DNA from: Fragilaria crotonensis | Lineage: Eukaryota > Bacillariophyta > Fragilariophyceae > Fragilariales > Fragilariaceae | Assembly: GCA_022925895.1 (NCBI GenBank) | Contig: JAKSYS010000622.1 | Location: forward strand, 1 to 37,118 | Length of the DNA: 37,118 nt | Reading direction: 5' to 3' | In this document: positions 5,040-35,311 of the stretch, in pieces | Numbering within the stretch: position 1 is the stretch's first letter | How the letters are laid out: each line of letters opens with the position of its first letter | The notes under the pieces: model-generated | Told to the model about the DNA's origin: nothing | The model's input: the letters and a program-made list of their open reading frames with translations, nothing else | The model's database searches: none | Position numbers and translations under genes: made by a program

Positions 5040-5770
5040 GTGTCATCGAGCACTCCGAGTACCAGTTCCATTATACTGTACGGCGTATGATACTTCGGCG
5101 TGGTACTACCAGCCAACATTGGGAATCTGGACCTCGCATACGAACTCCCCTATGCAAAACAGGTATCCGTTTTTCCGTGGCATGCCCACTCTGTGTATTA
5201 GGGGTACCTGGTACCTGGTACTTTTATTTCATACATACCTCCTCCGGAGTACGAGTACTGTACTACTACTGGTACCTATCATATAGACCTACCGGTAGTC
5301 TTGTTCTTTTGACTTCGGAGTTCGGAGTACACTTCGTACTGTATGTATGATGTATGCTGATACCTGGTATCATACTGTGTACTGTGTACGTCATACAAAA
5401 TGTATTCCAAGTACTCGAGTACTACAGTGCCCAAGTACTTGTAGCCAAGTATTAAAGGCCAGGGAGGTCCGGTAAAATGACGTTTCTTCTCGTAGCTTCT
5501 ACATGCAACTAATACCAAGCAGAGGTGCGTGGCCGGACCTTCCACATTCCACAGTGTCAGAGTACTGGCACTATACCTGGTACCAGGTACTGTACTGACT
5601 GTTTCATAAATAGTCAAGTAGCAAAGTGGTAGTAAACAGTGCTACCAGTACTTGTACCGTAGTAAGATCTTTGTGCTGGCTGGTCCAAGATTTCACGCCC
5701 TTATCGTGTACGAAGTATGGTACGACGTACACGTACGTTACTACTGGTACAAGCTCTTGGAGTAGACCTG
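5040..5770. repeat. GTAC-rich cluster in a divergent spacer
   Basis: By eye there are about 28 GTAC tetranucleotides in about 730 bp, roughly ten times the number expected by chance. They occur inside recurring words: GTACTTGTAC (5648-5657), TACCTGGTAC (5205-5214, 5212-5221, 5574-5583) and its reverse complement (5580-5589). Many are extended palindromes such as GGTACC. The cluster has no coding potential. It may be regulatory, or it may be a dispersed low-complexity repeat of this genome. Confidence 0.7.
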
Positions 5771-5818
5771 TGAACCGTGGAACGCCACGTGGAGACGAAT
5801 TCAGGATATTCTGGAGCG

Positions 5819-5991
5819 TCTGGAGTCTGGAGTCTGGAGGTCTGGAGGTCTGGAGGTCTGGAGGTCTGGAGGTCTGGAGGTCTGGAGGTCTGGAGGTCTG
5901 GAGGTCTGGAGGTCTGGAGGTCTGGAGGTCTGGAGGTCTGGAGGTCTGGAGGTCTGGAGGTCTGGAGGTCTGGAGGTCTGGAGGCTGGAGG
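5819..5991. repeat. Octanucleotide minisatellite (TCTGGAGG)19
   Basis: Nineteen perfect head-to-tail copies of TCTGGAGG run from 5833 to 5984. They are preceded by two 7-nt versions (TCTGGAG, 5819-5832) and followed by one 7-nt version (CTGGAGG, 5985-5991). Because 8 is not a multiple of 3, every frame gives the same 8-residue peptide period and remains open, so the long frames across the array are artefacts. The lack of sequence variation suggests recent expansion or active homogenisation. Confidence 0.97.
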
Positions 5992-6059
5992 CTGATCGAA
6001 TGTCGGAGGCTGTTGGTAATCTCATGCTACAGTATCAGCATATGCGAATATGATAGTTC

Positions 6060-6145
6060 TACTGGTACCCCCCTGGTATTATAGTACGGCATTCAATTTA
6101 GGTTTATGGTAATGTACAAGTACCTGGTACTGGCACAGTATATAT
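6060..6145. repeat. Small GTAC cluster upstream of acyl-CoA synthetase A
   Basis: About five GTAC sites in 85 bp, including GTACAAGTAC (6114-6123) running directly into TACCTGGTAC (6121-6130). The cluster lies about 190 bp before the start codon of the first ACSBG copy, so it is in the promoter or 5' UTR. Function unknown. Confidence 0.6.
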
Positions 6146-6317
6146 CTCATTTCTCATGTGGATTTTTTTCGTTTCGCGCGTTGATGAAGGTAGGATTTGT
6201 GTCGTGTCGAACGTCGAACACCTCAAGGGGCACGCGCTCACACAGCAGACAGGCATGCTCAATGCTCACATCATCCCAGTCGCATTAAAAAGTTCACAAC
6301 AGATTAGCAATTCTTCC

Positions 6318-8595
6318 ATGTCCAATCTCCCACTCTCAACGTCCGATGTGAGGCAAGAAGTCGCCATCCGCAAAGGCGATGGCGACTACTATAATCTTCC
6401 CGCCATGACTGTGATGGAATGTTTCGATGCCACGGTCAAGAAGTACGGCGACAAGCCAGCGCTTCACCAAAAGGTTCCGTCAAAGGTGCGTTGGATTGTG
6501 TGCATGTTTGTCCGGTCCTCACTTTGCATCAAGAGCGCTTCTGTTCGATATCATCAAGACTTCGAATTTATCGCCATGCTAATCCATCGCTCATTTCTGA
6601 TCTTAAATCCCCACAGGGCGCCAAGATGGAAGATACTCCGTTCACGACCTGGACGTGGAAGGAATATCGTGCTCAGGTAGACGCCTTTGCCAAGTCACTA
6701 ATCTCGCTCGGCTTCGAGCCCTTTGATATTATCAACATTATTGGCTTCAACAGTAGTGCATGGTTTATCGCAAACTTTGGAGCCATCGCCGCCGGAGGAA
6801 TAGCTGCTGGAATATACTCCACCAATCTCTCCGATGCTTGCAAATACATCACTCAGCATTCGGAGAGCAAGGTGGTTGTCTGCGAAGGATTGAAGCAGCT
6901 TGAGAAGTACTATTCAATCGCTGGTGACCTCCCGAACCTCAAGGCTTTGGTAAGTTTGATGTGGCACGAGGTCAAGAATTCCGTTGTTGACCCGGCTCAC
7001 CGAACATTTTTTCGCACTTGCTTTAGGTCGTCTACGATTGCGAGGAGATTCCTGCCGACATCAAGCAGAACCTTCCGAGTGTTGAAGTGTACACGTTTGC
7101 CGATTTCCTGACGTTAGGTGAACAGGTTACAGATGATGTCCTCATCACTCGAGCTAAAGGAATGAAACCTGGACACACGTGCACCTTGATTTATACGTCT
7201 GGAACTACTGGCCCTCCAAAGGCTGTAATGATCACTCATGATAACATTACATGGACCGTCCGTGCCATGCTCTCTTTCGTCCCCGGTGGGATGCTTGACA
7301 ACAACGACCACATCATCTCGTTCCTCCCGTTGTCCCATGTTGCTGCTCAAATGCTGGACATGCATATGCCCATGCAAACTGGTGCCCAGTGCCACTTCGC
7401 GCAGCCTGACGCTCTCAAGGGGTCGCTCGCAGCAACCCTCAAGGCGGTTCGTCCCACTGTCTTTTTCGGAGTGCCTCGCGTCTGGGAAAAGTTTTATGAT
7501 AAGCTCCAGGAAATCGGAAAATCGTCAACAGGAATCAAGAAGGTGCTCTCAACTTGGGCCAAGGCACAGGCGTTGAAGCATTGGGAATCCTTGGAATTTG
7601 GATCAAAATCTGGCGGCGCACTTCTTTATCCCCTTGCGAAAAAGCTTTTAAGCAAGGCACATCTTGCACTTGGTTTTGATCGATGCAAGGCTTTTTATGT
7701 TAGTGCAGCTCCGATTGAAGTTAAGATTCTCAAGTATTTTACTTCCATTGATATACCAATAATGGAATTGTTCGGTCAGTCAGAATGCACTGGGCCCCAT
7801 GCCAGCAACAGACTTCAAGCGTTCAAGATTGGTTCAGTCGGTCGTCCATTGCCGGGCACGGAAACGATGCTCGCTCCAGAAAACGGGGAACTTTGCTATC
7901 GCGGACGTCATATCTTTGCTGGATACATGAAAATGGAAGATAAGACCAAGGAGACAGTTGATACTGACGGTTGGATGCATTCTGGCGATGTTGTTAAGGT
8001 AAGTTCATGGTTTACGATGTATGGGGCTTTGATGGCATTCAACTCATGCAGGAATCTTTTCTGCTGCGTAAAGATTGACGATGATCACGATCCGAACATT
8101 CCGAAACCTTCTGGGTTCATCTACATCACTGGTCGAATCAAGGAAATAATCATTACCGCTGGTGGGGAGAATGTGCCTCCTGTCTTGATTGAGGATCAAT
8201 TCAAGCTTGCCATGCCTGCGTTGTCTAACTGCATGGTCATCGGAGATAAGCGCAAGTTCTTGACTATCCTTCTCTGTCTTCAAGTTGAAATCGACGAGAG
8301 TGGCGCGGCCTCAAACAAACTTACCGGGCGCGCTTTGGAGACGAGTAGGGAGATCGGTTCAACTGCCACGACGACTGATGAGGTGAGGAGTGATCCATTG
8401 TGGAAGGACTACCTGGATAAGGGAATGAAAGTTGCGAATAAAGCAGCCACCTCCAACGCGCAACGTGTTGGCAAGTGGGGTCTCTTGTCGACCGACTTTA
8501 CCGAGAAGGGAAGGGAGCTTACTCCTACGCTTAAGCTCAAGCGATCTGTTGCCGCGGAGATTCACGCTAAGACAATTGACGCTCTGTATGCTTGA
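6318..8595 (+). CDS. Long-chain acyl-CoA synthetase, ACSBG (bubblegum) type, copy A
   Basis: Activates long-chain fatty acids to acyl-CoA using ATP (via acyl-AMP), feeding lipid synthesis or beta-oxidation. Exons are 6318-6485, 6617-6949, 7027-7998 and 8074-8595, all joined in phase 0, giving 664 residues. AMP-binding motif 1 is LIYTSGTTGPPKAVMITHDN; further signatures are LFGQSECTGPHASN, GELCYRGRHIFAGYMKMEDK, DGWMHSGDV and GRIKEIIITAGGENVPP, the last typical of the bubblegum family. There is no signal peptide, so it is probably cytosolic or peripheral. The start was chosen because the encoded sequence MS(N/T)LP is where similarity to copy B begins; the upstream in-frame ATG at 6156 is not shared. 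Intron 3 (7999-8073) is 75 nt and contains no stop, so the frame stays open if it is retained; its acceptor is inferred from copy B. Copy B lies 6.3 kb downstream. Confidence 0.93.
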
Positions 8596-10094
8596 AGAAG
8601 CCACGAGACGAAGGCGTGCCCAAGGAAAGTGATGTCGCCACGGATGGAGCCGCTATTAGTGTTGACGTGTAGTATAAGTATTGCGTATTAGGAATTGTGT
8701 CACTACTCCGTGTCCTTCTTGCTCAACTTCATAGTGGTCGTACACACAGATTCGGTTTTTCATATTATCAGCGGAAGAATGGTTCTTATGAGAATCATCT
8801 CTACAGGCAGGATTCTCCCTGTTTCCCCCGGTGGTTCTGGTCTGCCTGTTTCTAAAAGAGTCCACCAGAACTTGTCATGTCCACTGTTGAATCCATCATC
8901 AAGGTTGTCGTAGAAATGCTTAACCTGGTGTCTACAATCGGCGATTCTGCCGCAATGTCCTCAGCATTTTACCGTACATAACGGTTGTGTTTGAGTGTGT
9001 TCGGTGTTTCATGACGGCACACTGTGACCGGGTGATACTCCGGAGCACTTCCGGTAGTACCCGTTTTGGATCCTTCAAAACGGCGTCAACATTTCAGTTC
9101 TCACAATCTTGGATAACAAATCAATCGGCGATCATCATTGTCTTGCTTCTACTAAAGCAACCAGGAGACCAAAGTCACATGCATCGGTAAGCGGGTCTCT
9201 AAATAATCTTATAGATTTATTACAATGATTATATTGGTTTAGCTTAAGTGTGCCTAGTACTCTAGTAGGGCGATATGCAGGCTCGTATCGCTGATCATCT
9301 ATGGGTTTGAGTAGCTCAATGAAATTGTCAATGTTGCCATATGCCACAGTGAGCAACCTCTTTGAAAAAAGTCCAATCTTCATGACAACAATAGCAAGAT
9401 CGCAGTCGGAGCACCTTGTTCACTGTCTGTTTATGTAGCTATTCCTCAATGGTGGGTCTCTTCTTGTTGTTGCTATGATTGCCTCGGGCTTCTATCACTT
9501 GGTGGTATTCATGAGAAACCAAGCGGTATCCTTCGGATTCCCCATCCAAATGACCCAGAATGACATTCACACGATGACCACAGATCATTCCAAGCATGAA
9601 CTTAGCCGAACCTCTCATAAATACTTAGTTCATCAATTTCCATCACTGCATATCCTGACATACAAGTGAGTTAATCAATAGAACTAAAAAGCATGGTAAG
9701 GCAAACTCATTGTCACCTGATGAGTGAAGGAATACTCGCTGTAGAGCCCACGCTGAATGCGACTCAATCAACACGACAACTTTCCGGCGGCCCTAGTATC
9801 TGTCCAGCATTGAGACCACGGCAGTCCAATGCAAGCTAAATGTCAATACAATCTCCAACCACTCCTATGAATAAGAAGGACTGAACAGTCCACCAAACCC
9901 TACTGCATGTACATGAACAATGTCAATACAGCATGTTTTCGCCAAATGATTGCAAAACTCCTGCCAAATCCTATCAATCTCGGCACTCAATGAAGATTGA
10001 CAGGCCAGCAGCTCCTCTTAAGTAACTTTCCAGCATTCATGGGAAAGGATTGGATGGCTACCCTGCTACTTAGAAACCCTATTGATTCACTTTG
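8596..10094. other. Spacer after acyl-CoA synthetase A, no intact gene
   Basis: About 1.5 kb without a credible gene. It holds the 3' UTR of the preceding gene, then AT-richer DNA that probably belongs to the decayed elements further right, though I could not assign any family here. A small hairpin is present (CCGTTTTG 9061-9068 with CAAAACGG 9076-9083). GTAC frequency is ordinary. Confidence 0.4.
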
Positions 10095-10182
10095 AATGCT
10101 CTGAGTCCTGGAAAACAATGCTCTGAGTCCTGGAAAACAATGCTCTGAGTCCTGGAAAACAATGCTCTGAGTCCTGGAAAAC
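10095..10182. repeat. Tandem repeat, four copies of a 22-bp unit
   Basis: Four identical 22-bp units start at 10095, 10117, 10139 and 10161; each begins AATGCTCTGAGTCC. The array directly abuts the 5' edge of recognisable copia reverse transcriptase (first readable motif from about 10193). The open frames across it on the minus strand are repeat artefacts. Confidence 0.95.
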
Positions 10183-10192
10183 AATTGACAGA

Positions 10193-11870
10193 GGGCATAA
10201 ACTGATCTGCCAAAAGGGTCAACATATTCAACAAGTGCAGTGTCAATGATAGTAAAGTGATTTCCTTTGCACTGGCAGCACTCAATTACTTGAATGTCCT
10301 CTCTGCCAATGTGCAACAGGCATACCTGGCCAATCTTGTGAATGAATAGGTTTCCACAATCGCAGGGTTGGAATTTGGAGCGGACAATGTTGGTTGTTCA
10401 GTACTCCTTGTTTGAGCACTCTCCGATCTTACTAAGTCAAGCGGATCTTGATGGCGAGACCACATGGCATCCACGCCGTGCGAAGACGGTTTCATCAAGT
10501 GCAAGGGAAACTGCCCAGATGTGGCTGTGAATGAGACCAAAGGTGAAGCAAAATGGCGGCAAGTACTGAGGGTACATCCTTTGCTACACAGATGACATTC
10601 TTTGAACCTCACGTGAGTCACAAGTTGTGATGGACAACTATCCTGCTTCCAAATAAAGTTTGAAGAAAGGAGGAAGTGTGAAGGAAGCTGATGCTTGTTG
10701 GGCGCTGACGAAGTGAAGAAAATGACAATTGATGGGTGGAGAGGATCCATGCAAGGTAGGGTGTGCACCAATGGCTGTCTGATCTTTATGTGAAACAGGA
10801 GGCTGTCACCAAAGTTGAATGCAAACTTGAGGAGATTGGTGAACAACCAAGCATGAACTTGTCAACACCAACCACAAGTCAAGGTTATATACTGCCTGAT
10901 ATTGATACTACTCCAGCAGATTTGGATCAATATGCATAGCGTACCAAGTGCTTCCAGGATTAAATTGGAGTACTAAAGCATTGGATATGTGAAGTTGTTG
11001 GTCAGATTGATATCTTGTTGATTTTGCAACGTTGTTGCATGTCCAAGCATCTCCAAGGCGGGGACATTTTGATCAACCTTTGTTCCACATGATTGCATAC
11101 TGAAACAAGCGGTCAAGCGCGGTCTTCAAGGTTACAGAACCTGTGTTTGATGAGAGTTGCATTCAAAAATGTGATTGGTGCAAATATAACCCCGGTGCGG
11201 CGTGTGAAGCCATACGGCCAGATGCGCCCAAAGTGCAGGGATAATTGGTATCTATGGGTTGCTTTGTTGAGGCTAAGCCAGCAGGAGTTGCTGGCTGCAT
11301 CACAAGCCACTCTCTTACTGGAGTCATTGTTTTTGTAAATCATTGAGCTTAAAACCTTTGGTATTTGAAGCAAAAGACCATTCTTGAGGCTTCTACCTCT
11401 GGTTCTGAATTCATTGCTGCAAAGAATGTAGTGCAATGGTTGAAGGTTTGCTTTGTGCATGATGGGTGTCAAAGTGGATAGAGCAAAGAATGTCTTCCGT
11501 GACAATGAATTGGTCCTGAAGAACTCCACCAAGCAAAATTGACATGGAACAGGAAATGTTATGCTATTGCTTACCATTGAGTGCACAATGGTCAAGAAGC
11601 TGCTGCTGGCAAGTGAAAGGGAGATGCAGAAACCTAGTACTTCAAGTAAGAGATTTTGTGTTCTCATGCACTTTGAGGAGATGTCAAAAATGGACAAAAT
11701 ACACCAGACCAATTCATGCGAGGATGGTTGTTCAAACTACATGAGCGAGCAAGGTTTCATTGTCTCCTCAATTCGGTGGTTAGCATTGAAGCCCGCCCAG
11801 CATTTCACTAAAAAGCAGAAAGAGCAAAGGATCTTACAGTAAGAAGATTAATGTTTTCCAACAAAGGTAT
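10193..11870 (+). pseudogene. Decayed Ty1/copia pol (reverse transcriptase - RNase H)
   Basis: Three-frame reading recovers a copia-type polyprotein broken by many stops and frameshifts. In order: TDLPKGSTYSTSAVSMI (10201-10251) matching the start of the RT palm region; LAALNYLNVLSANVQQAYLA (10272 on), matching the copia VQNAYL region; the RT active-site box read as YILCYTDD (10573-10596; copia elements usually have YVDD); a linker with YLVDFATLL then PRRGHFDQPLFHMIAY (about 11015-11097); FDESCIQKCDW (from about 11149); and RNase H segments SHSLTGVIVFVN (about 11302-11337), EASTSGSEFIAAK (11386-11424) and MMGVKVDRAKNVFRDNELVL (11459-11518). The element is dead. No LTRs were found, so its true ends are unknown. 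It lies in the spacer between the two acyl-CoA synthetase copies, on the same strand. Confidence 0.85.
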
Positions 11871-11984
11871 ACTTCAAGCTTTGACTTATGAATGTCTAAG
11901 ACCTCCCCAAATCCTGCGCCAGGAGGGAGGCATGGCATTTCGTTGTCTTGATTTGTCCAAAGGTAAATGCGCCCAACCGCAATA

Positions 11985-12600
11985 AAAGCTTCATTATGAA
12001 CAGGACCAGTCAGACACCAATTTCTTCTTTGTCACATCGGTCACACATTGTTGTTATCAACAACCTTAAGAGTCACTGTTACCATTACTCTCACATTGTC
12101 AGGTGAGATGATGATGAACTAAATCATCTTCAAAGGTTAGCCAGCAGGTAGTTACATTGAGATCAGAGAGTTCCCAAGAACATTCCCAGACCAGCCAGTA
12201 CTTGTATGTTTGTCAGTATAGGCGGGCGTGGATGGATTAGCGTGCATGTGATATGCGTTTCTTGGGTTTGTTTGGTATTGAATCCTCACAATGAACAGGG
12301 GCACCCGCCAAGGCGGTGATACCAATCATTCTGTAGGATTTCTACTATTGGTGCCACATGATGGCAAGAAGCATCAATGACATTCAAATTCCCAGGGGAG
12401 ATTGAGAAGATCCCAGGTGGATGTTCTGAGTTGTGTCAGCCAGTTGCGGTCATCATTGATGGCAAGGAGCCTCTCAAAGCAAGGGCACAACAGTTGTGGG
12501 ATGAAATGGATTCTAAACAAGGGCCTACAAGGCAATGCAATTTCATCTTCAAGATTTCTCCAGTTGACATGGTGGATCACAGACTCAGCAGAGCAGATCT
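11985..12600 (+). pseudogene. Decayed pogo/Tigger-like DDE transposase
   Basis: Fragments in shifting frames fit the C-terminal half of a CENP-B/pogo-type DDE transposase as seen in stramenopiles: TPISSLSHRSH (12014 on); IFKG-stop-PAGSYIEIREFP (12126-12173); QYRRAWMD (near 12215); FYYWCHMMARSIN (near 12340-12378), corresponding to the catalytic D-x-x-x-C-H-M-M block; and IPGGCSELCQPVAVIIDGKE (from about 12410) followed by LKARAQQLWDEM, the conserved QPxDVxxNKPFK region. Stops and frameshifts show that it is inactive. No terminal repeats were recognised. The identification rests on motif order from family knowledge, not on a search. Confidence 0.65.
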
Positions 12601-14440
12601 GACAGTCTCTGACCATCATGAACAATACCTCCTGGCATCATGCAGAGAACTCATACCTTCCCTCAGAAATGCTGCAATGCAATGACAACACCAGAGCCAC
12701 CATCCAGTGTGCTGAAGATGAACAAGGTCAAGCAGATGCTGACGGTCGTGGATAACAAGAAGACATACATGCCAGTAATTAGTAGTCCAAAAATTGTCAT
12801 CTGCATCTGAATCTCCTGATCAGGATGATGATGTGCCATCAGCAAGACTTCTAGAGCCCCTGGTGATTCCACTACAATCCCCACTTCATTGTAATCCTCC
12901 TCCACAACCACGACCACCGGTGGTTTGAAAAGACCCTGCTGGTTGTGATGCTACACATGACTCTATGAGCCATCATCGTCTGCATCTGATGGTGATTGAT
13001 GACGACGCATTATAGACTCCATTTGTTTTGTTGGTTACTAGTAAGCACTCCTGTAATGGCTTTCATTACGATCCTGCTGCATGGTAGTAGTTTCACGAGT
13101 ATGACTAATCTTTTATCATCTTGCTTCCTTAGGACCTGAACATCATCAATGTACTCATAGACATTGCAATAGCCCTCTGCATCACTTCCCACACCACAAA
13201 CTGCTAGGATTGATGATGCAAGATCATGTAATGATGTAGTGCATACTCATTCATTCATTCATTTATTCCATGCTGAGACAATTTTGGTTTCTTTTGTGTC
13301 TACAATGCATGCATACCCGGCACCCCTATTGAAGTACGATTCCTTCTTTCTGAAGTGACTTTGGACTGTGCCAACATGATGGCAACAACCTGAACAAGAT
13401 AGCCACCATCAACATGTGCTTGACAAACATGGTGTCACGGCAAGAAGAAGAATCCCTGTCAACAATGATCAAGCAATACAATACCATATATCACCCATTG
13501 CACAGGAACAGTTATTTCTTTGCACTGCTGTTGATCTAAGGGGAAAATCATTAAGTGGCTTTGCTGAGTAGAAATTGCACAGCTTCTATTACATGTTGTA
13601 ACATACCATTCAATTCATGCTGCACTTCTTGGTTTGTGAAGATGTGAACCAGTGTCAAGGGCTATTGCTTTGCCACAACAACAAGCAGCTATGCTGTTCA
13701 CAAGAGCATTCTTGATTGCACTCTTCATTGATGACTATTTTACCTTGTACACCGGTTCAGTGGAAATGATCCTCTGGACAAGCTGAATATGAGTGTGCAT
13801 GCAGATTTACTACATCTGGAAACATATGTATAGGAGAGCTAAACACAATTGTACTTGATTTTTACCAGAGAGTACAGAAATGTAAGGGATGCAGATACTA
13901 TCTGAGAAATGTAGTACTTGTCTGTGATGCCTAGCCCAAGGGGACTGAATGAATTTTATCATGAGTTTGGGTTATTCCAAAGCCCTGATAAGACAGATGA
14001 TTTTTTCCTGACTTGTAGGATGACCCCCCTGGTGGAGTCTGAAATACTAGCTAATTGATCAAGTTGCAAGCTGTTGCTACTGGTGATTGGTTCTAACTGT
14101 CAGAGTCAATCTTCTTCAAGGTGGCAGAATGTGCCACACGCGCAATGGTTTATTCACAAGTTACATCAAAATGGGGTCCGCCATTTTCAGTCATTCGTCC
14201 GTAATGTACATCTACAGTAGACAGGAGAATGAGGTACACCACTACTGCTACAGCGAGATACCCCCAGCTAACAGTCAGTGCACGAACTGCTGTATGAGTC
14301 GGGTTACTATGCATTATGCATACGCCAGTAGTCGTACGCGAGAAGGGATGACTGAAGCACAAAATGGGAACGCTCGTGTCAATGTTGGATGAGACAGGTC
14401 GACAGGTGACCGGTGACAACTTGGTGCCATTTACGGGCTT
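12601..14440. other. Unassigned decayed DNA between the tandem duplicates
   Basis: About 1.8 kb with no intact gene. All frames are broken. A (CATT)4 microsatellite occurs near 13245-13262. An Asp-rich reading near 12800-12850 (DQDDDVPSAR-like) and a diffuse stretch at 13560-14070 look like further transposon debris, but I could not name a family. Confidence 0.35.
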
Positions 14441-14640
14441 CTACTCCGGACTCCGGACTCCGTAGTACGAAAAACAACGAAATACCTACCTCTACTAGAG
14501 TACTAGAGTAGGAGTCCAACGAATAGAAGTAAGGCGGAACCAGCATTCTCATCGAAGTGCCTTGCAATATAATGCGATAGCTCGTACCCAAGTGTCGTAC
14601 ACACCAGGTACAAGTACCCCTCTCTAGTTCACGAGGGCTT
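14441..14640. repeat. GTAC cluster upstream of acyl-CoA synthetase B
   Basis: About six GTAC sites in 200 bp, including the full word GTACAAGTAC (14608-14617), plus a short ACTCCGG repeat (14444-14460) and ACTAGAGT repeats (14495-14510). It marks the return of host-like spacer DNA after the transposon-rich tract and lies about 300 bp before the start codon of copy B. Confidence 0.6.
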
Positions 14641-14913
14641 CGAGGTTGAAGTGGCACGACGACGGCACGACCCCAAAACAGAACATGACAACATGTCGAT
14701 TTTATTATACACTCATACAGTACTAAGAAATTCGGAGGGACAAAACCAGAACGCTTAATTCAGAGCTTGACACCAAGCTTGGATTCCAACGATACCAAAA
14801 GTAGGTTTTTCCTCGTCACACAGAACATGTCACAGATACGAATCATAGTTAAACGCTCACAAGCAGTTTTAGTCAAACATCACACTCACATTAAAGCTTG
14901 CTTCAAAACCTCC

Positions 14914-17199
14914 ATGTCCACTCTCCCAATCTCAACGTCCAATGTGAAACAAGAAGTCGCCATCCGCAAAGGTGATGGCCACTACTATAATCTTCCCGCC
15001 ATGACCGTAATGGAATGCTTCGATGCCGCGGTCAAGAAGTACGGCGACAAGCCGGCGCTTCACCAAAAGGTTCCGTCAAAGGTGCGTTGGAGTGCGTGTA
15101 TGTTTTCCGGCCCTCACTTTACAGCGATAACCTTTTCTGTTTGATGTCATAACTGCGCATTATTTATCACTTTGCTAATCCATGGCTCGATTCTGATCTC
15201 AATCCCCACAGGGCATCACGTTGGAAGATACTCCATTCACGACCTGGACGTGGAAAGAATATCGTGCTCAGGTAGACGCCTTTGCCAAGTCACTCATCTC
15301 GCTCGGCTTTGAGCCCTTCGACATTATCAACATTATTGGTTTCAACAGTAGTGCATGGTTCATCGCAAACTTTGGAGCCATCGCTGCCGGAGGTGTAGCC
15401 GCAGGAATATACGCCACCAATCTCTCCGATGCTTGTAAATATATCAGCGGGCATTCGGAGAGCAAGGTAGTTGTCTGTGAAGGATTGAAGCAGCTTGAGA
15501 AGTACTATTCAATTGCAAGCGACCTCCCAAACCTCAAGGCTTTGGTAAGTTTGACGTCGTAAGACTGCAAGCAATCCGTTACCGACCCGGCTCACCGAAC
15601 AATGTCTCGCTCTCGCTGCAGGTCGTCTACCATTGCGAGGAGATTCCTGACGACATCAAGCAGAATCTTCCGAATGTTGCGGTGTACACCTTCGCTGAAT
15701 TCCTGACGTTGGGAGAACAGGTTGGTGACGAAGTGCTCGTCTCTCGAGCTAAAGCAATGAAACCTGGACAAACCTGCACCTTGATTTACACGTCGGGAAC
15801 TACCGGACCACCAAAGGCTGTAATGGTCACTCATGATAACATTACATGGACTGTTCGTCTGATGCTCACATATCTCCCAGGAGGAAAACTCGACAACAAC
15901 GACCACATTGTCTCGTTCCTCCCAGTATCTCACATTGCTGCTCAAATGCTAGACCTGCACATTCCGATGCAAACTGGTGCCCAGTGCCACTTCGCGCAGC
16001 CTGACGCTCTCAAGGGGTCGCTCGTAACAACGCTCAAGGCGGTTCGTCCCACCATTTTCTTCGCAGTCCCTCGTGTCTGGGAAAAGTTTTACGATAAGCT
16101 CCAGGAAATCGGAAAATCGTCATCAGGAATCAAGAAGGTGCTCTCAACGTGGGCCAAGGCACAGGCGTTGAAACATTGGGAATCCTTGGAATATGGATCT
16201 ACAACTGGCGGCGCACTTCTTTATCCCCTTGCGAAAAAACTGTTGAGAAAGGTTCATGTTGCCCTTGGTCTCGATAGGTGCAACTCCTTTTTCGTAAGTG
16301 CAGCTCCGATTGAAGTCAAGATTCTCAAGTATTTTCTTTCCATTGATATTCCTGTCATGGAAATCTTCGGTCAGTCGGAATGTACTGGACCCCATTCTAG
16401 CAACCGTCGTGAAGCATTCAAGCTAGGTTCCGTGGGTCGTCCAATGCCAGGCACAGAAACAATGATTGCTCCTGAAAACGGGGAACTTTGCTATCGTGGA
16501 CGTCACATCTTTGCTGGATACATGAACATGGACGAGAAGACCAAGGAAACAGTTGACGCTGATGGGTGGATGCGTTCTGGCGATGTCGCCAAGGTACGTG
16601 CGAGTGGTAGTGATAATATCGATCCTGTGATGGTACCCCAAGTTATGCTGCGAAATCCCTCACTCGGCTGCTTGTAGATTGATGATGATCACGATCCAAG
16701 CATTCCAAAGCCATCTGGGTTCATCTCCATCACAGGTCGACTCAAGGAACTGATTATTACTGGTGGAGGGGAGAATGTAGCGCCTGTCCTGATTGAGGAT
16801 CAATTCAAACTTGCCATTCCTGCGTTATCGAACTGCATGTTGGTTGGAGATAAGCGCAAATTCTTGACCATTCTTTTCTGTCTCCGAGTTGAAATCGATG
16901 AGGATGGCACGGCCACAAACAAACTGACAGGACGCGCTTTGGAGACGAGCAAGGAGATTGGTTCAACAGCGACAACAACTGATGAGGTGAGGAGTGATCC
17001 ATTGTGGAAGGAATATCTGGATAAGGGAATGGAAACAGCGAATCAAGCTGCCACCTCCAGCGCGCAAATTGTTGGCAAGTGGAGTCTTCTGTCGACCGAC
17101 TTTACCGAGAAGGGAGGGGAGTTGACTCCTACCCTCAAGCTCAAGCGATTTGCTGCGGCAGACATTCACAAAGAGGCAATTGAGGCAATGTACGTGTGA
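14914..17199 (+). CDS. Long-chain acyl-CoA synthetase, ACSBG type, copy B
   Basis: Tandem paralogue of copy A with the same predicted reaction (fatty acid + ATP + CoA to acyl-CoA). Exons are 14914-15081, 15212-15544, 15622-16593 and 16678-17199; exon lengths (168, 333, 972, 522 nt), intron positions and protein length (664) are identical to copy A. AMP-binding motif 1 is LIYTSGTTGPPKAVMVTHDN. Unlike copy A, intron 3 (84 nt) ends with an in-frame TAG, so splicing is required; this gives the acceptor used for both copies. Two changes hit a usually strict signature: ITAGGENVPP in A is ITGGGENVAP in B, which could affect activity or specificity. Long identical nucleotide stretches (for example 52 nt at 15973-16024) suggest recent duplication or gene conversion. 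No signal peptide. Confidence 0.93.
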
Positions 17200-18090
17200 A
17201 TCTTGAACTGACCACACTTTCTGCTTGTCGATACATCTTCATATTCTTAGATCAGCACATCAAACAACACCATGTGACGAACAGTGAGTCCTGTTGCATT
17301 TTCTTTCCTCCTTGGCCATGAAGCACAGCACACAGTACTTGTACAAGTAGTCCGGCGAGTAGAGAATAACAGTACTTGTACTCCAGTACCTGGTAAACGG
17401 TAAACCTAATAACGGCACGATACTGTAGTGCAGTACAGTACTTCAAGTATCGCGCCGAAACGCATCTTCCGAAAGTATTCGTTTATGATTATAATATATA
17501 TTCGTTGTTCATTTTCGACGTTCGAAATATATTTCGTGTCTTTGAACTTTGAACAGTTTTCCTTTCGAAGCTCTTGTCGTCCTTTCATATCTCTTTACAT
17601 GGGTACAAGTACCAGGTACAACGTACAAGTATGCATACTGTATGCATAGTGCTGTACAGCTGTACATCTACCGTAGCTGTACATACTGCGGTAGGGGTAC
17701 TGTATGGGAATTATTTTCACATTCGTTCCCGTTCGTTTTCGCTTCCGAATCCGAAATGAGACATGACGACATGACAGATGGCACTGCTCAACTCTGCCTG
17801 GTAATGACCGCAACGTGGAAGCTACACTGTAAACGACGGCGGACGGAGTTTGCTGAGATGTCCCAGTCAGTTCGTAAAATGCCGATTCAAGTGAGTGATG
17901 TTGTTCGCTGTTCTTGAGAGCCGGCTTCCACAGAAAAAACGAACCTATTCTATACAGGTGCACCACTTCTTACTGTGTTGCACTGATACTGCGCACTGAT
18001 CATTGTCGTTCATCATCGCAACTTGCAACATCGATACGCATTACTGGTAGAGGATTGGTACTCCGTACTAATACTCGATTACGAGCAACC
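17200..18090. other. Spacer upstream of bestrophin with GTAC cluster and a palindrome
   Basis: This 0.9-kb spacer has about 16-18 GTAC sites between 17325 and 17710, including GTACTTGTAC at 17335-17344 and 17372-17381, GTACAAGTAC at 17603-17612, and the word GTACCAGGTA at 17609-17618. A perfect 14-bp palindrome, CGAAATATATTTCG, sits at 17523-17536. No gene is seen; the open frame from 17914 starts at a TTG and only extends the bestrophin frame upstream. Confidence 0.6.
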
Positions 18091-19419: not shown

Positions 19420-19628
19420 CCACATTCCGACCGATGACTAATCGTACACTTGTACTAACTGATAGTGGAGAAGTTGGAGATAGGATGCACAAGTGGCCGA
19501 GCGATTTCTCACGTAGACTACAAGAGCTTCATGCTCCAATGTTGTTGATTCAAAGCTACGTAGGTCGAAGAGTTTCTATGTTACTTCGTTCTTCAGATAC
19601 TACGGATAAGTATCACTCTTACTTGCGT
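19420..19628. other. Convergent junction bestrophin / cyclophilin
   Basis: A 209-bp spacer carrying the two 3' UTRs. Only two GTAC sites occur (19444, 19452). Nothing else is visible. Confidence 0.4.
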
Positions 19629-20388: not shown

Positions 20389-21101
20389 GATGGCTGGTAC
20401 TTTTCGGATCTTGGTTTTTAATGTCTCTGCGATCTTCCACGTTTGGGGAATGATAACTGGAATCTGGAATCTGGAGTAGTATATCTGGTACACTGGTACT
20501 CTAGTAGTAGCAACCGTAGAGTACGTGCTACTACAGACTACAGTACTTGTACTCAGGATCCCGAGGACTGGAGTTGTACAGTACTCGTACGACATTGTGT
20601 ACTGTACATGTACATGCTGTATCCTGTATGCTCGTACCTGGTACCAGGTACGATACCATACTCCGTATAGCATAATTATTAGTGGATTCTACTGGTAGGA
20701 ACAACAGTAGTTTTTGCACTGGATTTTTTTGTGTACTGCGGATGCAGGAATTTAAGTAGCCAACTCTGCGTACATGGGCAAGCTGCTCCCGGCAGCGCTG
20801 CAATTCCAAAGACGGCAGCAGTGCAGACAAAACAAACGTGACCGATAGTACTTGTACTTGTAATGTAGGGACATCATCATCAGTATTACATCCTATGATA
20901 CTCCCCGAGTACATCGAGTTGATGACCCCTTTCATTTGTCGCGTCGCCTTGAATCCGAAAATTCATGCTCGCTTGTGTACTTTGTCGTAAAGACCCCACG
21001 ATTTCTTGCTTTTTGCGTCCGACGTTTCGGACTTGGGTCACAAAAGGATTATAATTGCACGACCACTGGAGATCATTGATTGTTAATCATCACTGATTGC
21101 C
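20389..21101. repeat. Divergent spacer cyclophilin / kinase with GTAC cluster
   Basis: About 700 bp between two divergent genes. GTAC sites are dense at 20490-20665 and again near 20845-20910. Full words are GTACTTGTAC at 20543-20552 and 20848-20857, and TACCTGGTAC with its overlapping complement at 20635-20650. No gene or RNA is visible. Confidence 0.6.
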
Positions 21102-22632: not shown

Positions 22633-22724
22633 ACGGAGAAAGAAAATGGCAAAAAAGCGAGGTTGGAAAAATGTATATGTCAGAGAGATACACTATTCGT
22701 GATACGAAGTATAGTTTTAAAAAT

Positions 22725-23633
22725 TCATTTGGTAAGCGACGTTACTGTCTGTTTTACCACGGCTGGAACGGGACCAGCACCTCGTCGAAACGCCCACACA
22801 GCAGCGACTCCCGCGGCCAAGAGCGCATTGAGCGGTTTAATTTCCGCAACGAGTCTTTGCCACTCATCCAGTCCAGCACCATCCCAAAAACTATGTGTCA
22901 CCATGGCAGCAAATGGAACATTGCTTGTTTTTGCGTCATACTCGGCATCCAAGGTCCCACCCATGCCCCGTCGATAACGACTGTCCGTGTGCGACCCTCC
23001 CACCCATGCCACAAGTGTGGGCATGCACAGCCAGATGCGCTGAGGTAGGGATGGGACCAAACATGCGTGTCCTAATCCGACCAAGGCCATGGACCAGAGA
23101 CCAGGATGGCGTGAAATGCGTTCCAATCCGTACAGGTCAGGAGTAGTACCATTGCTGAGCTTTTGCTTTTTGGCATCTGCAAAATCAAATGGACACCGGA
23201 CTTGGAACGACGATTTCTTGTTAGGTGCCTCCTGCGAAATGGCTGGGGCGTCCTCGTCGTGAACCGGTTCTGCTGTTGTTGTAGGTACGTACGCTAGTGG
23301 CATTTGGAATTTGGGAAGTGTTTGCGATGCCATACCAAGGCCCACGGACAGCAGCATCCATGATGCAATGCGTGACGGTAAAGGAGCAGTGGCGACAGTC
23401 CATAGCAATGGCGGGACGTTGCGAGCCTTGTTCACGTAAGCATACACAATAGATCCCACTGCCGCAGTGGAGATGAGGCCGTAGACATTGTGATAACCAT
23501 CGTCGCCCAAATTTTCAATGAGGAAGGTTCGATTTTCCGATAGAATAACATTCTCCGCAATAAAGAAAGCCCATCCACCAGCAGCCCAACGAACGGACGA
23601 GGATTTGAGGAACGCTGTCGACAGATGGGACAT
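22725..23633 (-). CDS. NnrU-family integral membrane protein
   Basis: 302-residue polytopic membrane protein, no intron. The C-terminal half carries the NnrU signature: LYGLERISRHPGLWSMALVG (RHP at 175-177), then WVGGSHTDSRYRRGMG, with hydrophobic segments around 54-68, 88-103, 178-215 and 266-282. NnrU relatives include the plastid 15-cis-zeta-carotene isomerase (Z-ISO), whose conserved His residues bind haem. Overall resemblance to Z-ISO is weak and there is no plastid presequence, so I do not assign that activity. A hydrophilic loop (about 117-166) interrupts the domain. ATG 23633 is the first in-frame ATG; the frame upstream begins only at a TTG. It is divergent from the NIPA-like gene. 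Confidence 0.72.
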   Translation of the reverse strand: MSHLSTAFLKSSSVRWAAGGWAFFIAENVILSENRTFLIENLGDDGYHNVYGLISTAAVGSIVYAYVNKARNVPPLLWTVATAPLPSRIASWMLLSVGLGMASQTLPKFQMPLAYVPTTTAEPVHDEDAPAISQEAPNKKSSFQVRCPFDFADAKKQKLSNGTTPDLYGLERISRHPGLWSMALVGLGHACLVPSLPQRIWLCMPTLVAWVGGSHTDSRYRRGMGGTLDAEYDAKTSNVPFAAMVTHSFWDGAGLDEWQRLVAEIKPLNALLAAGVAAVWAFRRGAGPVPAVVKQTVTSLTK

Positions 23634-24523
23634 TGTGGATTGAGTATGACACGAGCAAAGATTGGGGCTCCGTTTTGTGTTTGTGATCTTGATACCAGTA
23701 TTGGCTTGAGCAACAATTTCGATCAACAACACCCCTGCTCCCTGTGACAACAACTCTAGAGCAATACTCAAGTCCTACTCCGAGCAAGATTCAGCTGGAA
23801 CGAAGGCTAATGTGATCGCAATACGTTGTAGTCTTCAGAAATGTTGATTGTCGCAGATTCGACGAAGGGTTGTGAGTTGTGAGGTGGCTGTTACTCCAGT
23901 ATTGTACTGGAGTACATTGGTACTGGAGTACTGCTGTTATAGCCGTCCGAGTTACCGGCACTGTTTTTTCATACTACGTGCTCAGTACGCTGGATGCAGT
24001 CTTAGACAGTAACATGAAGCCCAACAGTAAAACATACTACTACTGGAGTACGATAACAAACCGCACTGTCATACCGATACGCATGAAAAACTGAATACTG
24101 AGTACCACGAGTACTGTACATTCATCCATCATCCTCATTGTACTGTAATCATCGGAATAAATGACACCGTTTTTGCCCATACCCGCGCACGACTGCCGAT
24201 TGATGATGATAAGAAAGGCGGTCTCAACCTAACGCAATCCTACCCATTCTTTCAGTGTTGCATTGTACTCTCGACTCTCGCTGCACGTTTGTACTTCAAA
24301 CGAGTCAGATGAATGAGCTGAACGCTACTTTATGAAGGAATCTTACGGAAACCCAACACTGTACTCGGTGAATCTGATTTATAGAAGGTGATGCCAACCA
24401 ACGACAATCCAAGGACAGCCTATCTGAACTGTGCAACGCCAGTCATCTCTTGATCTCAACCACTATCACAACGATTGAATCTACACCAGAACTACTTCTA
24501 CTCCCCTACCGGTGGACGCACAA
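23634..24523. repeat. Divergent spacer NnrU / NIPA with GTAC cluster
   Basis: An 890-bp spacer. About 10 GTAC sites lie between 23890 and 24145, several in the words TACTGGAGTAC and AGTACTG. The flanks contain no recognisable gene. It presumably holds the promoters of both genes. Confidence 0.55.
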
Positions 24524-26873: not shown

Positions 26874-27633
26874 CGTGACTGATGCTCACACAAAGCGTAA
26901 CAAGGAAACGATGTTGTTGGTCAATGTGTTGTGAGATATGATGTTATGATACTGTTGTTTTATATCTCACCATGTGAGATGTGGGAGTCGCCATTTTTGA
27001 ATTCCTTCATCGGCGATTGCAGTGGAGTTCAACTACTGGCCTACAAGTGTACTGTACTACCGGTAGTGACATTAGCAGGCATTGGGCATTTGACTTTTCG
27101 AGGGTTCGTATTGGTACCGGTACCTGGTACGTAAGTTGCAATAGTAGCTGATAAATCATAAAAACAAGTACAAGGACTGGACGTACTACCGGTAGTACGA
27201 GTACTGGCGCACTGCATGTGTTACGGTATCACCCAGTTTGACGACGAACGCCTTGTCCACAGTCCACAGTCCACACCATAGACCGTAGACAGACAAACGT
27301 TCACTCAAGACACAACGTAACTTTTCGAGATCCTTCGTTTCGGTTCTTCACACGGCTTTCCTATGCTGAATGACCGTGATGCTGGTATGTCAGTAATCAG
27401 TAGTAGTAGCTCGTTTCATGACAGTGCGAGCGTTAACAGAATGCATCGAGCACGCGATAGCTACCGGTACATAGTGCGAGCGTAGACACACAAAAACAAC
27501 AGCACCACTTGTCGATTGCGTCGTTGAGTTCCAACTTCCATCCCTCCAACTACAAGTAGTCGACTTTGACCACAGTAGTAGTCGTTCCAGCCTCTTATCG
27601 CCCGCACGTCCCACATTCCACCTATTGCTCCGA
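26874..27633. repeat. Divergent spacer APC10 / RPT2 with GTAC cluster
   Basis: About 750 bp. GTAC sites are dense at 27045-27205 (about nine), including TACCTGGTAC at 27121-27130 and several ACCGGT palindromes (TACCGGTA). The RPT2-proximal part has a TATA box (separate entry). No gene is seen. Confidence 0.55.
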
Positions 27634-27640
27634 TATAAAA
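27634..27640 (+). promoter_or_regulatory. TATA box of RPT2
   Basis: TATAAAA lies 46 bp before the RPT2 start codon. A start site 25-30 bp downstream would leave a 5' UTR of about 20 nt. It is the clearest TATA-like element in the window. Confidence 0.5.
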
Positions 27641-27685
27641 GCACACACTCAGAACTCAACAACAACATAGTTTAATTCATCAACC

Positions 27686-30404: not shown

Positions 30405-30624
30405 GGTGAGAAGAAATTTACAATTGTGGTCAATATAACGGAGCATCACTTCGTCTGTTGGACGATTAAAAAGGCAGTCGTGTCCATTCAGGGTGAATTA
30501 ACGTTCAGCCTAATTCGTAAGTTGAGAAAAAAATCACTATTGCCGTAACAGCAAAAAAGCGAACCGATTCAGTCGGAGACAAACTCGACTGTCACATGAG
30601 CTCAACGGCATTTGTACGATCGTT
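30405..30624. other. Head-to-tail spacer PPR-SMR / CA-like gene
   Basis: Contains the PPR 3' UTR and the CA-like promoter. It has one GTAC site and no cluster. I found no TGACGT-type CO2-response element of the kind described for diatom carbonic anhydrase promoters. Confidence 0.35.
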
Positions 30625-33600: not shown

Positions 33601-34365
33601 AAGCATGATATTAAGTTGATACGCCCCAATCGGTTCCACAAACGCATCGGCATAATCATCAACGGCCCATCGATATACTTGTTTGAGTTTCGACACGCTC
33701 GCGTCAGTTTTTCCGATTGCCTCCAGGGCCTCTCCAATGACACGAGCCGACAACAAGAGTGTCCTACTACGTTTTTGTGGCACGTCATCATGCTGACGAC
33801 ACATTTTGATGGCTGATTGCAAGAGGGACATAATCATGCGATAATCTCCAGCCTCGCCACAAGTGCGAAAGGCTTGTATCAGAGTGCTGCTCAAAATTTC
33901 ACCAATTTCATTATCGGTCGATGAAGAAGCAGATAGTTGCTGTTGTTCCTGTTGCGCAACAGCAGCTGTCATGGAGTCAAGATATCGTTTGAGTGACCGA
34001 ATGGGCTTCATTGCCAATGAAATGTCGTCGTTGCTCGCTTTCTGAATGCTACTCGCGTATCGACGCAGCTGGTCTGTCAATTCAAAGGATGCGCCAAACC
34101 GCAATTCCTCTGACGAGTTCGATTCAATATCTTTCAATATTGTTGTTGTACTGTAGCGTCCGAATGATTTCGAGGAACGATTGCTCCGTTGGTGCCACCC
34201 AATTAGTATTGATTTCCTTGATTTTGTTGTTTCTCGACATGATTGTTGTGTTGATTTACAATTCAGAGTCACGAATGGCGTTACAAAGCCCGCACTCGAG
34301 CGAATCACCAGCAGCAGAAACAGCATGAGCTTATTAAATCTATAAATGTTCTTCATAATACTCAT
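30625..34365 (-). CDS. Plastid-targeted PPR-SMR protein
   Basis: 1246-residue, intronless pentatricopeptide-repeat protein with a C-terminal SMR domain; such proteins bind organelle RNAs and act in processing, translation or plastid gene expression. The N-terminus is a signal peptide (LMLFLLLVIRSSAG) with an ASAFAP-like site, SAG|FVTPF, implying plastid import. Degenerate PPRs run through the body, for example GAKAALHLLGTMKERNIAPD, EYAYSAAISACARCDQYDEA and NTWVYNAAISACVSP. The SMR domain starts near residue 1116 with LDLHGMNVAIANSAV and includes IVTGRGVNS, so both the LDxH and TGxG-type motifs are present. The start is ATG 34365; a second ATG at 34356 would keep the same presequence. The gene is divergent from the hydrolase gene, across a GTAC cluster and a MITE. 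Confidence 0.88.
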   Translation of the reverse strand: MSIMKNIYRFNKLMLFLLLVIRSSAGFVTPFVTLNCKSTQQSCRETTKSRKSILIGWHQRSNRSSKSFGRYSTTTILKDIESNSSEELRFGASFELTDQLRRYASSIQKASNDDISLAMKPIRSLKRYLDSMTAAVAQQEQQQLSASSSTDNEIGEILSSTLIQAFRTCGEAGDYRMIMSLLQSAIKMCRQHDDVPQKRSRTLLLSARVIGEALEAIGKTDASVSKLKQVYRWAVDDYADAFVEPIGAYQLNIMLKTLGEKKKKVQAALELYRSTDIVGDAFTLSTVLNLLTSSISDDQDVASGWTAGDESPCWQYEQGMRILENAEDLNNFVFSAALKLNDRASEVFCRPGRRHNGAKAALHLLGTMKERNIAPDLVTCTHVLSAFDKHQEWKAAVVMLTSMEKGDAKVDSWQLPAPNEYAYSAAISACARCDQYDEAIRLLDRMKRPGSSAKPNTWVYNAAISACVSPSSKRNRNDRIQMALSLLDDMQRDSEEGNLSTAPDTVTYNTALAVMDGMGMVLRDEKGRRVCEYSTSEPEAWVPSENLISEMLEEMRSKGIPRDALTYHNAIKASKSNSRVIFELLEQATLDLGCQDESHSTLTGRAGRGLGFVFNAALATFANRGDMDLMVRALNMMRVQNITATRESVIQLVVALGRSRNSRNIMALLETLRGNQAASKVLREQFGFDLSIVMEGNPRDLEQLYAVSISSCLVANDIESATSVLNLMKENGLSPSQSTMKDIAFAYTRLAVEAASHQSTRRRKEAKYGISNDLDIDTGMSGASHAQRAGAIIRELSDPSPQLLSSVASAYAATGSFEQARTILQSLHESALEEQSNSKLLSRGEQEILQVLPRLHRSLLKICAGPGNAQAAYWFVEDIQNFANNLSSSSREMCLADAPLVPDFSDPADFRDANLLRFNRTHTDTARLTGMRGEDWKLLLISASKAGDWKLCINTLQFLRPFLEAYHPSRATSKNADVVSRKYRKLARALTASVLCFEEQRHSAWAIRAVDDWIEWSGRRPPKEAILASIRILASQARGTEVTSLIQQVLRVKASASDRREDAQHTYEEILYIGAITHLHNNGLYEDADELYLQAITNQYLPFSVATAGSDGHQHLDLHGMNVAIANSAVRIAFQQDVLQSQAGGDLLIVTGRGVNSFYQMRPILRPEIQRMLTEEFYLPLSTFSMPGNMGALRVPAGDIQAWAEHQRQQRGVKMLAVADALKNLSSGLLRRSLNLSLNRKQGKQD

Positions 34366-34974
34366 CAATTTCTTTTTCGATCAGCCGTTTGACTGGTCTC
34401 TCCACTTCTTTCCTTGTGGCGTTTGCGTTGGTTGCTAGCACACTCGTCGTTCGTGAACGGGAACAAATTCGTGGTAAAGTCAGCCAGTGATTAATTCGCA
34501 AGGGTTTCGTTGAGCCTTGTTCTTCTCGACTGTGAGCACCACTTGCTGTCAGCACAAGATCGTTTTGTCGTTTGCTTGATGGTCTTCGATCGGCGAAGCA
34601 CCCTGGCAGACACATCGCGGCAATTTCAACAATTTTCATACAGGTTTTTTTTACTTGGCGGCGGTCCAATCACCGTCCATCAATCGTCCGCCAACTCCGT
34701 TGACACGGGACGCTGGGTTCGTGACAGGAGCTACTGTCGTGTGCCCAACGAGTACAAGTACCTGGTACCGGTACTCGAATAGCTATATCATAGAGATCAT
34801 AGTATGTCATCGTACATAAACATGCCTAATTCGGTTTGTACAATGTACTCCAGCACGCTAGTACAGTACCATTACTGGGCTCAGGAGTATTGTGCGAATA
34901 GGCCAATTTAGTACCCCAAGAACGCGTATTTTGAACACAGGGTACTCCAGTATTCCGGTAGTGTACTTTGCATG
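34366..34974. repeat. PPR promoter region with GTAC cluster
   Basis: The first ~370 bp look ordinary; the frame 34340-34669 on the minus strand has no family support. From 34745 to 34974 about nine GTAC sites occur, including GTACAAGTAC (34752-34761) running into TACCTGGTAC (34759-34768). No gene is seen. Confidence 0.5.
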
Positions 34975-35311
34975 GTGTACAGCAGAGACGGGAATTTCAA
35001 ACCCAGCCCACCCAAACCCACGGCCCACCCAAACCCATTGGGTTAAGGGTGGGTTTTGGGTGAGCTCAGGATTTCATGGGTGGGTCTGGGTGGGCCGGCA
35101 AATCATAGCAAAAAATGACAGTAGATGTTTGCTACCGGTAGTAGTAGAACCATGTACTCCAGTACTGGCTACTGGGTTTGGGTGGGTTTGGGTAGGTCTT
35201 GGTTGATCGTATGGGTTCTGGGTGGGTTTGGGCTGGTACTTCCGTGAGCGTAGCTTTACGTGGGTACCCATGGGTTTGATGTTTTCAGAAATTCCCGTCT
35301 CTGGTGTACAG
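34975..35311. mobile_element. hAT-like MITE with intact 8-bp target-site duplication
   Basis: A 321-bp non-coding element (34983-35303) has perfect 16-bp terminal inverted repeats, CAGAGACGGGAATTTC at 34983-34998 and its complement at 35288-35303. It is flanked by an exact 8-bp direct repeat, GTGTACAG (34975-34982 and 35304-35311). An 8-bp duplication with CAGAG-starting ends is the hallmark of the hAT superfamily. Subterminal copies of CCCACCCAAACCCA occur at 35007-35020 and 35024-35037, with an inverted copy at 35173-35186; similar GGGTTTGGGTGGG words fill the right end. Such subterminal repeats are typical transposase-binding arrays. There is no transposase, so it depends on an autonomous partner elsewhere. 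It inserted into the divergent PPR/hydrolase spacer. Confidence 0.9.

Follow-up and report, generated by a model that had tools for sequence, protein, structure and literature searches.

Clustered GTAC palindromes biased towards the 5' sides of genes in the araphid diatom Fragilaria crotonensis

Short palindromic words that recur at many genomic sites are known from several systems. The copper-response elements of green algae and plants, read by SBP/SPL proteins (CRR1, SPL7), have a GTAC core in promoters, and the SBP consensus TNCGTACAA places C before GTAC. In Drosophila, the DRE is a short palindrome found at very many promoters and read by the BED finger of DREF, and in cyanobacteria the highly iterated palindrome HIP1 occurs in coding DNA as well. 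Few diatom promoter elements are known to us. Here we analyzed a 37,118-bp stretch of the Fragilaria crotonensis genome (contig JAKSYS010000622.1; the whole stretch is referred to as the window), in which a first-pass annotation made from the sequence alone had pointed out a recurrent 10-mer, GTACTTGTAC (GTACAAGTAC on the opposite strand), in spacers upstream of genes, together with clusters of the tetranucleotide GTAC.

The locus resembles each of these systems in part. With the copper-response elements it shares the promoter GTAC core, but no SBP domain was found, the flank preference is a different one, and many sites stand in each spacer before unrelated genes. As with the DRE, a short palindrome is present at very many promoters; the diatom word differs, however, its islands are dense, and their binder is a putative one. 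Like HIP1, one palindromic word is iterated genome-wide, but unlike HIP1 the diatom 10-mer does not occur anywhere in the 120 kb called as coding. Apicomplexan AP2-G also recognizes promoter sites with a GTAC core (GTACNC; available part of PMC7083873), whereas the diatom genome yielded no AP2 domain at E ≤ 0.01. The subterminal repeats of hAT transposons (AAGT in Hermes, AAGTACTT in Tol2) are likewise clustered quasi-palindromic words, one of them centered on GTAC (available part of PMC10368747), but the island vocabulary is unlike that of the two resident families of miniature inverted-repeat transposable elements (MITEs) that were compared. None of the titles and abstract openings listed from the open-licence literature names the diatom element.

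The 10-mer and the GTAC islands of the window

Nine copies of the 10-mer were found in the window, against 0.05 expected (mean of 100 dinucleotide shuffles; maximum in any shuffle, 1). All nine positions given in the first-pass annotation were exact, and its chance expectation of 0.07 is close to that of the shuffles. One copy (5648–5657, plus strand) lies in the divergent spacer between a minus-strand frame (3688–4350) and a gene named ACSBG-A, and another (6114–6123, minus strand, reading GTACAAGTAC on the plus strand) lies upstream of ACSBG-A. A third precedes ACSBG-B (14608–14617, minus), and the spacer between ACSBG-B and the bestrophin gene holds three more (17335–17344 and 17372–17381, plus; 17603–17612, minus). 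Two copies are located in the divergent cyclophilin/kinase spacer (20543–20552 and 20848–20857, both plus) and one in the divergent spacer between the PPR and alpha/beta hydrolase genes (34752–34761, minus). As had been proposed, every copy lies in a spacer on the upstream side of a gene; the copies at 17335 and 17372 are also at most about 180 bp from the ACSBG-B stop, and hence on the 3' side of that gene too.

GTAC itself occurred 210 times in the window versus 84 ± 9 expected. The five divergent spacers held 35, 20, 13, 10 and 19 GTACs, and 10 and 17 were counted upstream of the same-strand genes ACSBG-B and bestrophin, which, at 10–35 sites each, bears out the clusters reported for these places. 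The four convergent junctions, for which 0–2 sites had been claimed, held 2, 0, 1 and 0, and two additional convergent gaps called by a hidden Markov model (HMM) held 0 and 2. Islands of GTAC were delimited at 5059–5750 (28 GTACs), 6065–6130 (5), 14206–14723 (10, upstream of ACSBG-B) and 17190–17700 (16, upstream of bestrophin, the first GTAC being at the 3' end of ACSBG-B). Four others fall in divergent spacers: 20397–20980 (21, cyclophilin/kinase), 23904–24364 (13, NnrU-like/NIPA-EamA-like transporter), 27049–27470 (10, APC10/proteasomal ATPase) and 34752–35314 (19, PPR/hydrolase, partly an inserted MITE).

ACSBG-A (6315–8596) and ACSBG-B (14911–17200) are tandem duplicates, 84.8% identical from just before their shared ATG onward. 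Their homology ends within about 20 bp upstream of this ATG, and islands are present in both of the unalignable upstream parts. The non-coding 5.4-kb stretch between them (8600–14000) contains 18 GTACs (3.3/kb) and two long frames without a Pfam match. A simple microsatellite, named in the first-pass annotation as a pattern that would speak against its reading, did not account for the sites: the window holds four tandem arrays, none of them GTAC-based, and short 6-bp runs do occur outside the window (for example C2:58313–58340 and L042:9961–9988, C denoting contigs and L sampled loci). A minisatellite of 23 copies of TCTGGAGG is located at 5810–5991 within the ACSBG-A upstream spacer, and 4.1 perfect tandem copies of a 22-bp unit at 10095–10185 in the GTAC-poor stretch.

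Pfam matches agree with the earlier gene map in giving two AMP-binding enzymes, bestrophin, cyclophilin, a kinase, an NnrU-like and a NIPA/EamA-like protein. The names ACSBG-A and -B are those of the first-pass annotation, as Pfam assigns AMP-binding and no subfamily. Further matches in the window that fit this map were APC10, a proteasomal ATPase, carbonic anhydrase, PPR, alpha/beta hydrolase and GYF.

Genome-wide excess, site grammar and position

Genome-wide counts were made on the assembly of the window (62,107,879 bases, 881 contigs); for strain SAG 28.96, the available part of PMC9476933 gives 61.85 Mb, 879 nuclear contigs and 47.4% GC. The earlier observation holds and extends genome-wide. 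The 10-mer was counted 5,106 times (2,535 + 2,571) versus 352 (183 + 169) for the reversed-word control, GTACN1-5GTAC 46,783 times versus 13,824, and CTACCGGTAG 2,305 times versus 51. In an unselected, motif-blind sample of 20 stretches of 10 kb (every fourth contig from C4 to C80, bases 10001–20000), GTAC was the 4-mer most over-represented relative to its dinucleotides (1.94). GTACs were also clustered, with a variance/mean ratio of 2.71 per 300 bp compared with 1.09–2.12 for 13 other 4-mers. A looser island count (5 in 300 bp) failed to separate GTAC (52) from CATG (68); strong islands (8 GTACs in 400 bp) were adopted after the dispersion measure and were counted for GTAC only.

The sites follow a spacing rule. 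Start-to-start distances between GTACs of 5, 6, 7, 8 and 9 bp occurred 25, 56, 47, 38 and 24 times, against a mean of 15.4 at 12–60 bp and 9.5 at 10–11 bp. Inverted TAC–GTA pairs in non-coding DNA reached 2.0–3.6 times expectation at gaps of 1–5, 0.89 at gap 6, and 1.5–2.2 at gaps of 7–12, which reflects clustering; in coding DNA, the values at gaps 1–5 were 0.5–1.2. Among all 64 trinucleotides TAC ranked first for inverted self-pairing (2.42; median 1.05). The fillings between TAC and GTA differed by gap (A/T; TT/AA/CG; CTG/CAG; TACA/TGGA), which argues for recognition. AA/TT fillings are inflated in the flanking-base statistics of close GTAC pairs given further below, which include 21 loci picked for the 10-mer; the fillings by gap and the trinucleotide pairing are free of that bias. 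Other words in the same set as GTACTTGTAC include TACCWGGTA, CTACCGGTAG, TACTGTA, TACTACAGTA and TACTGGAGTA.

Apart from self-overlap and short matches, the flanks of 54 10-mer sites showed for the most part no relation to one another, L006/L012 (MITE D) and L042/window (MITE A) being the exceptions. The sites thus do not represent a single copied repeat, and an origin from a dispersed repeat was rejected. Repeats that recur among the 21 pieces (the 20 stretches and the window) account for 48 of the 1,143 GTACs and for none of the 24 10-mers, which is a low estimate; when element ends were used as the criterion, 3 of the 54 sites fell inside hAT MITEs (L006, L023, L045), and another 8 were no more than 300 bp away from such an element. 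A search for relatives with the 18-base island word GTACCWGGTACCWGGTAC returned one viral and at least 117 prokaryotic stretches (L094–L210; several per metagenome-assembled genome, from Acidimicrobiia and Chitinophaga among others), and by word counts none of these 118 resembles an island set, so that they yielded no relative.

For position relative to genes, coding segments were called by a three-periodic HMM trained on long frames. A count by spacer class, as the first-pass annotation had suggested, was made over the 20 stretches and the window. GTAC densities were 9.05/kb in 22 divergent spacers, 6.91 in 21 tandem spacers, 6.87 in 40 intron-like segments, 4.88 in 27 convergent spacers and 2.23 in coding DNA, with observed/expected ratios of 2.46, 2.39, 2.30, 1.63 and 1.36, respectively. 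Without the window, the four non-coding densities were 8.21, 7.31, 4.79 and 5.01/kb (ratios 2.32, 2.41, 1.81 and 1.63). The difference between divergent and convergent density had a permutation p of 0.002 with the window and 0.009 without it. Median densities were 9.0/kb in 5' flanks (n = 69) and 5.0/kb in 3' flanks (n = 48; one-sided p = 3e-5), these flanks being not fully independent, since neighbors can share a spacer. Of 26 strong islands, 14 were divergent, 6 at 5' edges, 5 between same-strand genes, 1 at a 3' edge and none convergent. The 24 10-mers were distributed over divergent (5), tandem (5), intron-like (3) and edge (11) positions, with none in convergent spacers or coding DNA; two of the three intron-like copies are the ACSBG-A pair of the window, misfiled by the HMM. 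Convergent spacers in unselected DNA held 0–11 GTACs each. Density fell from divergent through tandem to convergent spacers, and convergent and intron-like DNA stayed above expectation. Confinement to promoter-side spacers stands for the 10-mer in the window and fails genome-wide, where convergent spacers are at 1.63 times expectation and some 10-mers lie in MITEs. As tandem spacers also lack polarity (see below), we describe the sites as biased rather than confined.

Protein-site clusters, mutational origin and candidate binders

Clustered short sites, a spacing rule and promoter enrichment, by which homotypic transcription-factor clusters are recognized, are all found here, despite the absence of tandem polarity. 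On the most likely reading, to which we assign about even chances, the islands are promoter-associated homotypic clusters of putative sites for one DNA-binding protein or protein family. A sequence-specific protein, or a family of paralogues, would recognize the half-site TAC and would bind as dimers or neighboring copies on inverted half-sites (TAC N1-5 GTA and the overlapping GTAC). Islands of roughly 10–30 sites would then act together, with promoter DNA held open, transcription recruited, or both. In that case the 10-mer could be the most conspicuous part of a larger system of cis-elements at the promoters of this araphid diatom, a proposal we hold with equal measures of confidence and doubt.

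A range of observations weighs against this interpretation. The 13 tandem spacers had no polarity, with 86 GTACs in their 3'-side halves and 79 in their 5'-side halves, and GTAC was still above expectation in convergent (1.63) and intron-like DNA (2.30; 1.81 without the window). Carbonic anhydrase, a third same-strand gene that was not in the earlier list, had a single GTAC in its 130-bp upstream gap, and the stretches upstream of silicon transporters were GTAC-poor (3 in 1,801 bp, 6 in 759 bp), so not every promoter carries an island. The class assignments themselves contain errors: the HMM missed exons, such as the second kinase exon, which produced a false convergent gap at 21570–22755, and the ACSBG-A island was not counted as divergent because 4061–4324 had been placed on the wrong strand. 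Direct TAC–TAC pairs were raised too (2.07, median 1.40; 2.95 at gap 3 alone), in part as a by-product of GTAC pairs, and the variable gaps are ill-suited to one rigid dimer. One second-order Markov simulation yielded 775 of the 869 GTACs, leaving the clustering unexplained. Non-TAC 6-mers recurred more inside islands than outside, at 4.6 versus 1.7 times the Markov expectation for direct and 2.3 versus 1.15 for inverted pairs, although two windows supplied 216 of the 438 direct pairs; this hints that local duplication contributes to some degree. Finally, the SBP and AP2 searches described below were empty.

Several of these observations would fit the main rival to protein-site clusters, an origin by mutation, in which the islands are functionless, cryptically simple sequence grown in tolerant non-coding DNA by slippage and by the copying of TAC words through hairpins or template switching. 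The GTAC excess in every non-coding class, convergent and intron-like included, the tandem spacers without polarity and the recurrence of non-TAC words all point in this direction. So does the complementarity of the ±1 flanks of TAC–GTA pairs, seen in 276 cases versus 206.8 expected from the product of marginals (n = 586, ratio 1.33); the ratio for TAC is fifth of 64 half-sites, the others pooled giving 1.09. However, this complementarity fades past 1–2 bases, and inverted pairing is not a general property but peaks at TAC and its TA-containing overlaps. The window lacks a TAC-type tandem array, its 5.4-kb non-coding stretch is at only 3.3 GTAC/kb, and sites favor 5' over 3' flanks. On balance we consider a mutational origin rather unlikely.

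For protein-site clusters, candidate binders were sought with domain profiles, run exon by exon, so that a domain split by an intron can be missed. The SBP profile (PF03110) gave no match in the genome at E ≤ 1, while three control genomes responded below this cut-off, and the AP2 profile (PF00847) gave none at E ≤ 0.01, with one control genome over the cut-off. CP2/Grainyhead, considered on account of TACCGGTA and TACCWGGTA, gave no match in the diatom or in the control genomes, which makes that search uninformative. HSF, which also served as positive control of the SBP search, gave 77 matches genome-wide, and this huge family could contain the binder. Matches to HSF recur with equal or near-equal scores on the contig pairs C58/C416, C256/C560, C261/C340 and C147/C478, which suggests leftover haplotigs or recent segmental duplications. 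Silicon transporters gave 19 genome matches, and a single open frame of 1,456 aa (C97:29749–33762) holds three of these in a row.

The SBP lead, which holds that the sites are copper-response elements of SBP type, had been doubted by the first-pass annotation itself. It rests on the GTAC core (available part of PMC4158090). Against it stand the search without a match at E ≤ 1, compared with 77 for HSF in the same kind of search, the sites preceding unrelated genes, and the flank preference: in 1,735 non-coding GTACs on both strands, the preceding base was A in 636, T in 485, G in 361 and C, the rarest, in 253 (once the counts are corrected for the NG dinucleotide, C is roughly on a par with T and still ranks under G and A). 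The exon-by-exon domain search and the misfit of the flanks largely refute this lead, whose probability we regard as close to nil. The other suggestion of the first-pass annotation, that another binder must be considered, remains the leading idea.

hAT elements in the islands and significance

The island between the PPR and hydrolase genes carries a 321-bp MITE (34983–35303, family A) with terminal inverted repeats (TIRs) beginning CAGAGACGGGAATTTC and an 8-bp target duplication, GTGTACAG, on its left (34975–34982) and right (35304–35311). All 14 compared TIR bases match and the TIR is of CAG type, which with the flanking duplications identifies a hAT MITE. Four of the 19 GTACs at 34381–35549 lie inside it and two in its target duplications. 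Among the best 40 genome matches scored, 39 are other copies of most of this MITE at 95–100% identity, and 214 exact family-A TIR ends were counted genome-wide (about 107 copies). The arms of family A are rich in GGGTTTGGGT-like repeats. A TIR scan of the sampled loci left nine elements, belonging to six families, once the three weakest of 12 matches (10/14 bases, CAA-type ends) had been dropped as chance. A TAC/GTA-rich patch is visible towards the middle of the apparently unrelated families A, B, E and F, and off-centre in D (window 34983–35303, L037:1415–2042, L040:3310–3748, L011:1035–1493, L045:1263–1902, L012:739–1308). MITE F (L045:1263–1902) consists of numerous copies of CAATATATTG/TTGCAATA, another palindromic word that is highly iterated.

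Family A is inserted in GTAC-rich DNA. Its flanks held 46 GTACs in 40 × 72 bp, against 19.8 ± 5.9 in random non-coding DNA (reached in 0 of 2,000 draws) and 23.1 ± 6.4 in random divergent DNA (p = 0.0015), and 19 flanks held at least one GTAC versus 12.5 expected (p = 0.02). The 40 family-A target sites fit the hAT rule nTnnnnAn (available part of PMC10368747), with T at position 2 in 33, A at position 7 in 32 and G at position 3 in 22. The target duplication GTGTACAG holds a GTAC and close GTAC pairs are 5–9 bp apart, and we therefore examined whether each GTAC-N-GTAC pair could be an 8-bp target duplicate left by hAT excision. The pair distances do bracket 8 bp, hAT elements occur near islands, 3 of the 9 scanned elements carry GTAC in their target duplication, and pairs 7 bp apart share the base before GTAC in 39 of 78 cases (22.9 expected), largely through the CTG/CAG fillings. 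However, GTAC was found in only 3 of the 40 target sites of family A, the one family sampled widely, where the flanks predict 3.3, and 8-bp pairs had no clear flank repeat (27/61 versus 23.7 and 25/61 versus 21.8). These two results largely refute excision scars, which we judge very improbable.

A broader connection to hAT elements is doubtful but somewhat better placed. The islands would be sites for the BED fingers of hAT transposases or of a protein domesticated from one, or else decayed remnants of the subterminal arrays of ancient hAT elements. In families B (L037:1415–2042) and C (L023:1474–2541), the terminal fifth at either end contains TAGTAC arrays that resemble the subterminal repeats of hAT elements; in the available part of PMC10368747, Tol2 has AAGTACTT adjoining its TIR, and the BED domain of Hermes binds AAGT, cooperatively at a quasi-palindrome. 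The genome gave 31 hAT dimerisation-domain and 5 BED matches, and on contig C251 a family-A TIR at 50731 is followed by BED (51154) and hAT dimer (52834) matches in a 717-aa open frame about 400 bp from the TIR. Judged from these search matches, C251:50731–53028, with the TIR of one end observed, is a possible autonomous partner of family A; C257 and C297 hold matches scoring equal or nearly equal to those of C251. The insertion of family A in GTAC-rich DNA and the 10-mer sites in or near MITEs would also fit. On the other hand, such insertion is what islands of open chromatin would predict, so landing there may merely reflect accessibility, and the vocabulary of the islands is mostly unlike that of the B and C ends. 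In one copy each of these ends (700 bp), 17 TAGTAC/GTACTA and 27 GTACs were counted with no TACCWGGTA, TACCGGTA, TACWGTA or AGTACT, while the window islands (2,585 bp) held 11, 5, 15 and 15 of these words; one GTACAAGTAC is common to both.

A hAT-derived reader of the islands is conceivable. In its furthest form, a flexible-gap TAC palindrome code would run much of the promoter architecture and be read by a hAT-transposase-derived protein, with transposons that share the vocabulary homing to host promoters; we think this improbable, and a long shot at present. If the islands are mutational, they would represent an unusual, sequence-specific way in which intergenic DNA becomes rich in palindromes. 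If they are protein-bound, as clusters of promoter sites would be, they would offer, for this widespread freshwater alga, a handle on the promoters of many of its genes, together with a candidate promoter-level regulator.

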